Source of the DNA: Pleurocapsa sp. MO_226.B13
GTDB lineage: Bacteria; Cyanobacteriota; Cyanobacteriia; Cyanobacteriales; Xenococcaceae
Length of the DNA stretch: 13,331 nt
Direction: 5' to 3'
Assembly: GCA_030064795.1 (NCBI GenBank)
Contig: JASJEI010000187.1
Location: 1-13,331 of the forward strand
The stretch's first letter is position 1. Every line of letters starts with the position of its first letter. Shown one piece after another: positions 3,139-6,716 of this stretch. The notes under the pieces are model-generated. The model saw only the letters and a list, made by a program, of their open reading frames with translations. It had not been told where the DNA came from and searched no databases. The position numbers and the translations under genes are program-made.

Positions 3139-3729
3139 CTAAAGCTGGTAAAGGCTTTTAATGGCGTTCCAGTAAACAGAATCATCATCTGGTATCATTC
3201 TCAAGTATGCAGCTAGCAACGCAAAGCAGATACCTAAATCATCCTCAGTTAAGCTACTAGGCATCTCGCCAGCTAGATCGCTAGAGATGATAAGTTTCTC
3301 ATCCTCGATAAACTTTTCGGCTAGCTTTCTATGGGCTGAAGCAACTCCGAGAAATCGGATGTTGTTATAAGCCAATGAATCACCAACCTTCTTTTTACCG
3401 TCGTTATCTATGATGAAATTGGCTTGGCGACAATATTGGTGGAGATTGGAATCGATAATTAATTGACAATCATCCCCCCAACTGTGTCTATCAATGCGCG
3501 GATACTTCTCGTCTAATTGCTTTAGTAGTTTAGGTACTACAATATCCAAAGTCGCATCATTCCAGATATCACTAGTGCCTACGCGGATAACATGAGCCGA
3601 TTGAGGTATATTTTGACCGTTCTCATCAGCCTTATTAGTAACTATCGCTATGACTAAGCTCTCACTACCAGTTTCACCTCTAGCGTAAGTGATCACTAGA
3701 TTCTTGTGTTCTTCATTTTGGTTTCTCAT
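3139..3729 (-). CDS. Hypothetical protein, 196 aa, island gene
   Basis: This is a complete ORF from ATG (3729) to TAG (3139) with no signal peptide or membrane segment. It has a hydrophobic strand LVIAIV near residue 25-30, a strand QLIIDSN after an acidic DD, the segment YNNIRFLGVASAHRKLAEKF, and a final acidic-then-alanine-rich helix (EDDLGICFALLAAYL). That strand and helix order, with acidic residues at strand ends, loosely recalls the RNase H-like nuclease part of phage large terminases. However, the first expected Asp is not clear, so I leave it unassigned. The start has only a weak GAG nearby. Upstream on the same strand lie the intron-split gene and a truncated ORF, so it may be part of a decayed phage or plasmid module. 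A short basic open frame (3713-3781) overlaps its start. Confidence 0.6.
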   Translation of the reverse strand: MRNQNEEHKNLVITYARGETGSESLVIAIVTNKADENGQNIPQSAHVIRVGTSDIWNDATLDIVVPKLLKQLDEKYPRIDRHSWGDDCQLIIDSNLHQYCRQANFIIDNDGKKKVGDSLAYNNIRFLGVASAHRKLAEKFIEDEKLIISSDLAGEMPSSLTEDDLGICFALLAAYLRMIPDDDSVYWNAIKSLYQL

Positions 3730-3868
3730 ATCTCAATCTTAATTTCTGATTCTGTGACTTCTCCCTAGCGCGTAAACGCATACGGGCTTCATCTCTCGCG
3801 AGACAAACCTGACTGCTCTACGCCACTACATGCGGCGAACTATGCGCCTTTGTCTAGATACACAGCAG

Positions 3869-5285
3869 CTACCATGCATCCCCGACGAGATCGACTTCGC
3901 AGTCAATTTCTTTCCCCGCCAGTCCTGCGGTACTACTCGTATTTGGAATACTCGCGCCATCTAAATACGCTTGGATTTTTACAGATGCGACTCTCGCATC
4001 CAACCCATATCCAAATTTTCTAGGTGCGTTGCTTTGTACCAAGTTACAGCAATTTATAGCTGTTATAGTCGATGTTGGAATCGCTTCCAATCACCTCTAC
4101 TTCAAAACCGTACGTGAGAGTTTCCAACCTCATACGGCGACTCGCTCATAGCCTTGACGCTTCTCAGCTTCGGTGTTCACTTTTAGATTACTCTTACTTG
4201 CGAACTCGGATTGTTTAACGTTGTTTATCCCCTTGTTATCCCATGCTCAACCGCCTTGGAAGTGTCACGACGAGCGCGTTCCCTTGCGCCGTAAAACGAC
4301 GCGGGGTCGCTCGTCAGTTTTAAACTCCTTCTGTACGCATTGGCATTTTTAGGCTTATTAGAGATTATTAAATCGTATCCTCTATGAGACGTAACCTACG
4401 TGGGCATATCCCGCCGATTATCAGGGTTTTAGTACCTGGTTTTCTTGCTCTTTCAAGCAGGGCATTAGCTTTTTAGGTTATCCTTCTCCCTATTTCCTTG
4501 CGCTTTGGTTTTTACTTATGGATATTTTAAGGCTTCAAACTTTCTGATATTTTCCCAATGTACATAACAGTTGATGTCGAGTGACAATTTGTGTTACCTT
4601 GGGTCAGACCAATTGTCTTGACGGATTAGTAGTAATTATGAAATCAAGCTATTTTACTACCTATCCAGGTTCATAGTCTTATCGTTGAAGTTTAACCTCC
4701 ATAGACAATAGGGGTTTCCTCGTTCCTCAGTATCATTTCACGATGAACTTAGGTTCACACAATACACCTGGGTCTTCATCCCACGACACCAATACAAATC
4801 TAATTATTGGCAAACCAGACTCCTTTTTTCTCTTGTGGGTGTAACGCCTATGATAGCTCAGTTAATCAGTCATTACTCTGTAGACCACTATCCTCGCGTT
4901 TCTTACTGTTTTTGTAAGAATTAACAATCATTTTCACAACACAAGGTACCTAAAGATGCTTAAATGTGTTCACGCTATTGTTAACCATATTCATCTCCAG
5001 TAGGAGGGATTCTCTAATGATTTCAAGTTCCCCCCATTGAGCCTCGTAGCACCGCAAGTTATGGGTACCAAACCATAAAATGTGAGCTATCTATTTACTC
5101 CTGTGGTTCGGAGAACAGGAATTTAACCTGTATGATCCAGAATTTTATATTTGCCTTTCTAGGTTCATATAGTACCTTCCTTTATCTCAACTTGTGAGAG
5201 ACTCTGGGTACAACGAGTCGCACAGATTTCTGGCACTTGAGGGGATTATACAGCAGCCAAAACCAATGCTATATAAAGAGTTCAT
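3869..5285 (-). CDS. 84-aa hypothetical gene split by a group II intron (exons 5285-5224 and 4061-3869)
   Basis: Exon 1 starts at the ATG at 5285-5283 and runs 62 nt to the intron boundary. Exon 2 runs from 4061 to the TAG at 3871-3869. Joining them gives 255 nt, an uninterrupted 84-aa frame that begins MNSLYSIGFG, crosses the junction at Leu21 and ends VDLVGDAW. The frame is retained even if the 3' splice site lies 3 or 6 nt earlier. The start codon overlaps the TGA of the preceding ORF in an ATGA arrangement, typical of translational coupling. I recognise no domain in the product; it is Cys-containing near the junction and acidic at the C-terminus. Without splicing, translation would enter the intron. 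Expression therefore depends on splicing with a maturase supplied from elsewhere. The exon join is clear in the sequence; that the gene is functional is inference. Confidence 0.55.
4062..4140 (-). ncRNA. Group II intron domains V and VI
   Basis: Domain V spans about 4140-4104: GCCGTA pairs with TACGGT, a CG two-base bulge precedes the 3' strand, and a TGAG/CTCA distal stem leads to a GGAA loop. The triad position reads CGC rather than AGC, a known variant. Domain VI (about 4104-4062) pairs GTAG with CTAT, GGTG with CATC and TTGGAA with TTCCAA. An unpaired A in CGACTATAAC sits 8 nt from the inferred 3' end, a usual branch-point distance. Confidence 0.8.
4269..4315. repeat. GC-rich hairpin inside intron domain IV
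   Basis: GACGAGCG at 4269-4276 pairs with CGCTCGTC at 4308-4315, enclosing a GC-rich, partly self-complementary centre. It stands out from the AT-rich intron around it. It may be an inserted palindromic repeat or a native domain IV stem. Confidence 0.55.
4789..4810 (-). other. EBS1 hairpin of the group II intron
   Basis: CCAATA and TATTGG form a 6-bp stem. The loop carries AGATTT (plus-strand 4796-4801), complementary to the six bases just before the 5' splice site. This is the expected placement of exon-binding site 1 in domain I. Confidence 0.7.
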
Positions 5286-6269: not shown

Positions 6270-6716
6270 TTAATCATTATTTAAATAATTAACTAAAGCC
6301 CGTAACCCAAGACTATAACTATCTGCACCAAAACCGCTAATTTGACCAATAGCCACAGGAGCAATATAGGAATGATGTCGAAACTCCTCTCTGGTGTAGA
6401 TATTACTTAAATGTACTTCTACCGTAGGAATTTTAACTGCTGCTAAAGCATCCCTAATTGCTACGCTTGTATGGGTGTACGCACCCGCATTGATTATAAT
6501 CCCTTGGTGTTTTTCTCTGGCATCATGTATCGCATCTACCAGTACACCTTCATGATTGGACTGCAAGCTGGTAAGAGTAACTTGCAGTTTTTTGGCATCG
6601 TATTTTAAAGCCTCGTCTATTTGCTTGAGAGTTTTTAACCCGTATATTCCAGGCTCTCTCAGTCCTAACAAGTTTAAGTTAGGGCCATGCAAAACTAATA
6701 TGCCGATTTCAGACAA
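6270..6716 (-). CDS. aroQ: 3-dehydroquinate dehydratase, type II
   Basis: This enzyme catalyses trans-dehydration of 3-dehydroquinate to 3-dehydroshikimate in the shikimate pathway, in the cytoplasm as a dodecamer. The 148-aa protein is full length for the family. Visible motifs are HGPNLNLLG (10-18), the flexible catalytic lid with Arg20 and Tyr25 (REPGIYG), QSNHEG (52-57), NAGAYTHTS (76-84), the catalytic pair Glu100 and His102 in EVHLSN, and Arg109/Arg113 in TREEFRHHS. The start is a TTG at 6716: an in-frame TGA sits two codons upstream, so no ATG can extend it, and no clear ribosome-binding site precedes it. It lies 46 nt after the 47-aa gene on the same strand, so it is probably cotranscribed and translated weakly. 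Confidence 0.95.

Follow-up and report, generated by a model that had tools for sequence, protein, structure and literature searches.

What does the apparent group II intron on the minus strand of this locus interrupt? The stretch of DNA analysed here (the window; 13,331 nt of Pleurocapsa sp. MO_226.B13) had been given a sequence-only reading in which removal of the intron restores an in-frame gene of 84 codons (5285-5224 + 4061-3869, minus strand; 3869..5285 overall). Based on the frames of host copies and a protein search, we judge this spliced ORF to be spurious. We consider it probable, at roughly 0.8, that an ORF-less group II intron lies in the sense strand of a tnpB-less, IS200/IS605-derived RNA element and not in a protein gene. 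Judging by its gene content, the window is cyanobacterial. It encodes aroQ (6270-6716, minus; Pfam DHquinase_II), with best identities of 81-82% to Pleurocapsa, Xenococcaceae and Pleurocapsales records, followed by ORFs that we take, from their sequences, to be homologues of chlB, rplU and rpmA.

The intron spans 1162 nt (4062..5223, minus; GTGCGACTCG ... CGACTATAAC), as identified from its relatives and delimited by intron-less copies of its host. It begins with GTGCG at 5223 and ends with AC at 4062, which conforms to the GUGYG/AY pattern. A hairpin loop upstream of domain V, placed in domain I by its position, carries the EBS1 sequence AGATTT (4796..4801, minus), which is complementary to IBS1, AAATCT, the last six bases of the 5' exon (5224..5229, minus). 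Domain V lies at 4105..4140 (minus), with a CGC triad at 4139-4137 and two broken basal pairs, and domain VI at 4065..4100 (minus), with an unpaired, bulged A at 4069, 8 nt from the intron 3' end. Between EBS1 and domain V, a variable region that is probably domain IV holds a dispersed palindromic repeat (4269..4315, minus; GACGAGCG ... CGCTCGTC) with matches in all six Pleurocapsa/Xenococcus-type genomes searched. The repeat stands where four sister introns have another sequence, common to them.

Covariance-model searches of the kind proposed earlier for 4062-5223 gave two domain V families, both below the Rfam cut-offs. The window has no Rfam match at the gathering threshold. At E <= 5, RF00029 scores 34.5 bits (cut-off 40), with its 3' end exactly at 4062, and RF04357 provides a second sub-threshold domain V match (38.9 bits; cut-off 53). 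Beyond these two families nothing was found in the window at E <= 5, one overlapping same-clan match being set aside, and scans of the window and host loci returned no group I match.

Further evidence comes from a family of related introns. Pleurocapsa sp. MO_192.B19 (G001) has a full-length relative, and with the intron as query at least 6 of 388 genomes of the order were matched at E <= 1e-8, a lower bound because two candidates per genome were scored. One of the six, G313, has its matches at the same place as the plasmid of Gloeothece verrucosa PCC 7822. This was the one record matched in the plasmid collection, at three places, and two full copies from it (Gv1 and Gv2) were included in the comparison. 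The phage collection gave no matches to the intron, and the plasmid collection none to the 3' exon. The set compared comprises eight full introns of 934 to 1205 nt (window, G192a, G192b, G273, G001, Gv1, Gv2 and G323) and a ninth copy, G167, matched in its 3' part only. All eight full copies start with GTGCGAnYYGTT, so that the GTGCG end proposed for the window recurs throughout. Their longest stop-free stretches on either strand are 47 to 101 codons; none of the eight therefore encodes a reverse transcriptase, which upholds the description of the intron as ORF-less.

Family members are inserted into flanks that are unlike one another, except in G001 and G273, where the introns occupy the same place, in frame at codon 4 of related tnpB genes. 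Gv1 lies in frame inside an ORF with an intron-less paralogue, and for the sites of G192a, G192b and Gv2 we found no recognisable gene or empty site among the loci examined. The two Gloeothece introns (L125 and L126) end with AAG and not AAC, an end that for Gv1 is backed by the in-frame join and by the paralogue. In G323 (L127) a family intron lies near the start of an ORF, its splice ends uncertain by one or two bases; this ORF presumably encodes a ribbon-helix-helix protein. A TATAAT-like box 15-21 nt upstream of seven of the eight copies suggested a promoter carried by the family. We dropped this idea because a box within a gene most simply belongs to the host.

The unlike sites allow the predicted exon recognition to be examined. 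When one register of the aligned loop was kept for all introns and set against the final six bases of each intron's own 5' exon, with G-U allowed, six of six bases pair in seven introns and five of six in G192b; G323 uses four G-U pairs and G001 two. The own-site sum of 43.0 out of 48 is reached by one of the 40,320 permutations of the eight introns over their sites, namely the true assignment. EBS1 thus tracks IBS1 across unlike insertion sites. A looser test, which took the longest run anywhere in a 35-nt stretch with no penalty on wobble pairs, could not tell own from foreign exons, the latter sometimes doing as well or better. The 3' domains also covary. Over the nine copies, 95.2% of cells in domains V and VI are paired and 11 of 28 pairs are changed on both sides; shuffled alignments reach four of five measures in 0/500 cases and the fifth, further pair types, in 112/500, and slid versions of the structure pair 37-50%. 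The features described for the window are beyond chance, since they recur with compensatory changes in eight other copies (seven complete, one 3' part only). Hence the EBS1 loop, a recognisable domain V and a domain VI with its unpaired A, all proposed from the letters of this one copy, hold across the family.

Intron-less copies of the host define the boundaries. When the window flanks were joined, a single BLAST piece crossed the junction in 10 of the 11 loci without the intron that were searched (L160-L168 and L170, L169 having the 3' part only), covering 6-63 nt before and 48-217 nt after it. Matched separately, the flanks meet with neither gap nor overlap in L160, L162, L163 and L164, and are one base off at the junction in L165. 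An alignment of seven of these loci is gap-free at this point. Therefore the predicted join of 5224 to 4061 is exact. Two family mates provide independent support, again by sequence comparison: the site of Gv1 is uninterrupted in a paralogue on the same Gloeothece plasmid (annotated as WP_013335023.1), and in G167 a related tnpB reads on where G001 and G273 carry the intron.

The joined flanks belong to a repeated, apparently non-coding element with a conserved RNA fold. Its 5' exon (5224..5282, minus) has TATAAT at 5250-5245, and the first RNA hairpin begins within it; its 3' exon (3754..4061, minus) comprises the remainder of the RNA element, with a right-end hairpin and GTCAC at the end. 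By excising with a motif from 25 loci we obtained 17 intron-less exon copies. The host RNA consensus was built from 11 of them, the six lengthened by insertions being left out, and has 46 pairs. Across these copies 98.0% of cells are paired and 21 of the 46 pairs are changed on both sides. Shuffles reach four measures in 0/500 cases and further pair types in 10/500. Slid versions pair 34-41%. Since one alignment both gave rise to the structure and supplied the counts, this comparison is tilted in favour of the structure, and the pairs changed on both sides carry more weight. The -10-like box is an exact TATAAT in 10 of the 17 copies and fits TAnnnT in all of them, and the intron sits inside the first hairpin, 21 nt past the box (about 20 nt in the copies). 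A sigma-70 consensus scan of the window returned no -35/-10 pairs. Rfam 15 gave a weak, unrelated L20-leader match in L160 among seven host loci and nothing in six further loci (the two sets overlap, L181 of the second with L164 of the first). Searching eight genomes with the 3' part of the host returned between 1 and 35 matches in each, where one copy may give several.

Some further features accompany the host element. At 3821..3858 (minus) the window copy includes another dispersed repeat (GGCGCATAGTTCGCCGC...), which the remaining aligned host copies lack and which differs from the repeat at 4269-4315; other insertions are present near this point in L160, L162 and L182, which suggests a site tolerant of insertion. 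A hairpin (GGGAATTCCC...GGGATGAAAG) lies at 5370-5334, upstream of the host RNA; it has similar stretches in several host copies and is perhaps the left end of the element. Directly behind the right end is an ORF of 196 aa (3139-3729, minus) with no Pfam match at E <= 0.01 and, among the fetched loci, a match at chance level only.

Comparison of loci connects the host with TnpB. Part of the 3' exon (3754..3935, minus; hairpin at 3790-3754) is homologous to the 3' end of tnpB and the right end of tnpB-bearing elements. The intron-less element as query matches in some part in 70 of 388 genomes of the order (E <= 1e-5; two candidates per genome scored), and most of the weaker matches listed fall on the 3' part. 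Among 23 loci with the 3' part only, 15 have a tnpB match upstream on the same strand, 12 of which end within 30 nt; in L196, L202 and L206 the tnpB match is partial or farther away, and in L171 tnpB is on the other strand. None of the 21 loci with the 5' part has tnpB. A wider set gives tnpB in 20 of 32 loci with the 3' part only versus 0 of 42 with the 5' part, counts in which, as in the first set, loci overlap and for which 2 of the 11 queries are not TnpB. Several loci with the 3' part only start at a contig end and therefore cannot be judged for tnpB. The identity of TnpB rests on PF01385, PF07282 and PF12323. The tnpB-bearing and tnpB-less kinds both end with a hairpin and (A/T)GTCAC, after which the flanks are unlike, and G001 and G273 hold both kinds, with tnpB-bearing copies at L241 and L244, respectively, beside tnpB-less ones. 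An RNA region 3' of and beside tnpB, with a right-end hairpin, is the arrangement of an omega RNA; the host has this region by homology and, in the window, is without tnpB. Thus, the host is most likely a tnpB-less, IS200/IS605-derived non-coding RNA that resembles an omega RNA, and it may be transcribed and may guide TnpB.

These data bear on two other accounts of the host. That the intron interrupts a genuine 84-codon protein gene, restored by splicing, is very improbable. Joining 5224 to 4061 does give an open frame of this length from an ATG that overlaps the previous stop, as had been described, and some family mates do lie in frame within genes (tnpB in G001 and G273, the ORF in Gloeothece). 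Against this, the search for uninterrupted homologues of the product, run against 5.8 billion proteins, yielded one word-sharing candidate and none at E <= 1. Among the 17 host copies, the frame stays open over the exon in four (L181, L231, L170 and L160), with L160 alone reaching the same C-terminal tail, and stops or small indels break it in the other 13; indels of one or two bases are common. No ATG recurs in the aligned copies at the place of the start at 5285. Moreover, compensatory RNA pairs extend throughout the exon, and the final codons fall in the frame of the tnpB tail: the tnpB frame passes through the 3' part (in L195, STQGLWGKEIGCQVGLSG), and SSTAGLAGKEIDCEVDLVGDAW of the window is read in the corresponding frame, so that part of the open frame is accounted for. 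We have therefore rejected the protein-gene reading, for which neither homologues nor a conserved frame were found. Alternatively, the host could be a structured RNA functionally unrelated to TnpB that shares a right end with tnpB elements by moving with their transposase. In keeping with this account, blastn finds no counterpart of its 5' part in the tnpB-bearing loci, and it has a -10-like box of its own. Against it, tnpB-bearing elements have the same 3' part, with the terminal hairpin and the GTCAC end, and both kinds of element are found in G001 and G273; we regard such an RNA as unlikely.

If the intron is spliced, a maturase would presumably have to come from elsewhere, and reverse transcriptase (RT)-bearing introns of sister genomes are candidate sources. 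RVT_1 matches occur in all six genomes with intron relatives, and Intron_maturas2 in one of them. We chose seven RT regions (L210-L216) because they resembled the family or lay in tnpB. In five of them (L210, L211, L213, L214 and L216) GTGCGAYTCGTT precedes the RT frame, and the proteins of all five score over the TIGR04416 cut-off; that of L210 has RVT_N, GIIM and HNH domains. Thus RT-bearing introns with the same 5' motif are present in sister genomes. The likeness of the family to these introns at the RNA level is weak (nhmmer, up to 25.9 bits). One region, L215 (G167, contig C626; 1600-1800, 4060-4441), has an RT-bearing group II intron, beginning GTGCGGTTCGTT, near codon 11 of a related tnpB, and after about 50 nt of further exon the apparent start of another intron (GTGCGATTCGTTC). 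Together with the codon-4 site of G001 and G273, these two make three insertion sites at the start of one type of tnpB.

Whether the window intron can itself splice we put near even, on the evidence of its sequence. The domain V triad is CGC in the window and AGC, the triad expected, in the other eight of the nine copies, and the basal pairs 4140/4105 and 4139/4106 are broken in the window copy alone; splicing of this copy is therefore doubtful. It could be a decaying, splicing-dead copy that has kept its outline, has a damaged catalytic core and inactivates the host RNA, an account we rate a little below even odds and one compatible with our explanation of what the parts are. In its favour are the altered triad, which has no matching partner, the two broken pairs, and departures of the window copy at 23 of the 291 columns that do not vary among the other seven full introns; the palindromic repeat also replaces sequence common to the sister introns. 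On the other hand, domain VI, the EBS1-IBS1 pairing and the boundaries are intact, and the copies of Gloeothece and G323 either lack the region of the repeat or have a different one. Counted in the same leave-one-out manner, the other seven full copies depart at 0, 2, 7, 15, 23, 24 and 49 columns, two of them more than the window. CGC triads occur in group IIC introns, so the triad here is to be read as a variant or as decay, and not as exclusion from the group II family.

The sequence of events that we favour for the tnpB-less RNA element and its intron is as follows. A retroelement-derived, ORF-less group II intron, sharing its 5' motif with RT-bearing introns of related cyanobacteria, would have recognised its target through EBS1-IBS1 base pairing and entered the sense strand of a tnpB-less element that is present in repeated copies. 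This host would derive from an IS200/IS605-type transposon, with a -10-like box, from which it may be transcribed, and a conserved RNA fold, its 3' part being the right-end (omega-RNA) region that is found behind tnpB in tnpB-bearing elements. The intron would split the first hairpin of the predicted transcript shortly after the box, and its splicing, aided in trans by the maturase of an RT-bearing cousin, would restore the host RNA exactly.

Several known systems are close to this arrangement. PATEs, known from haloarchaea, are protein-less, transposon-derived repeats. By this description, the host is like them in being a protein-less repeat that comes from a transposon, and unlike them in carrying a covarying RNA and a -10-like box. 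PATE-type non-autonomous elements are treated in PMC3119063. As summarised in PMC4424553, ORF-less group II introns are rare in bacteria and usually have related introns alongside, and splicing in trans by an intron-encoded protein has been demonstrated in a cyanobacterium. The window intron resembles such introns served in trans, as outlined there and in PMC12702839, in its 5' and 3' ends, EBS1, domain V and domain VI, and in having no RT gene while RT-bearing introns with the same 5' motif exist in sister genomes. It differs from them in its CGC triad and in that one member here interrupts a repeated, apparently non-coding RNA element. With tnpB-bearing IS200/IS605-type elements, as sketched in PMC8612924 and PMC10097598, the host shares the right-end sequence, the terminal hairpin, the GTCAC end and the strand order; unlike them it has no tnpB, and it has a 5' part of its own of about 200 nt and its own -10-like box. 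IStrons, which join a group I intron to an IS (PMC4227781, in outline), likewise combine a ribozyme intron with an IS-type element, but here the intron is of group II and is inserted inside the element, so that it does not make an IStron. Among open-access titles and abstract openings we found none describing a group II intron that interrupts a TnpB guide RNA, or one that lies within a comparable element without tnpB.

The intron adds a member to a small ORF-less family and occupies an unusual host. What had been claimed as an intron in a gene is replaced by a nested case, in which an RNA element derived from a DNA transposon has been invaded by a retroelement-derived ribozyme that in turn carries a palindromic repeat. 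The host RNA covaries, lacks a match to its own fold in Rfam 15 in the loci scanned, and recurs, its 3' part having 1 to 35 matches in each of eight genomes; these properties make it a testable candidate for a TnpB guide RNA that stands alone. More broadly, and tentatively, since we hold this for possible while leaning against it, the order may carry many promoter-bearing, tnpB-less guide-RNA elements that use TnpB encoded elsewhere; a group II intron family would have colonised both tnpB and the stand-alone guide RNAs, and splicing by a maturase acting in trans would decide whether guide RNA is produced. The intron family, with empty sites at several of its targets, offers a means of asking whether a non-coding guide RNA can be restored through group II splicing; such a case would parallel, for group II, the IStrons with their group I introns.
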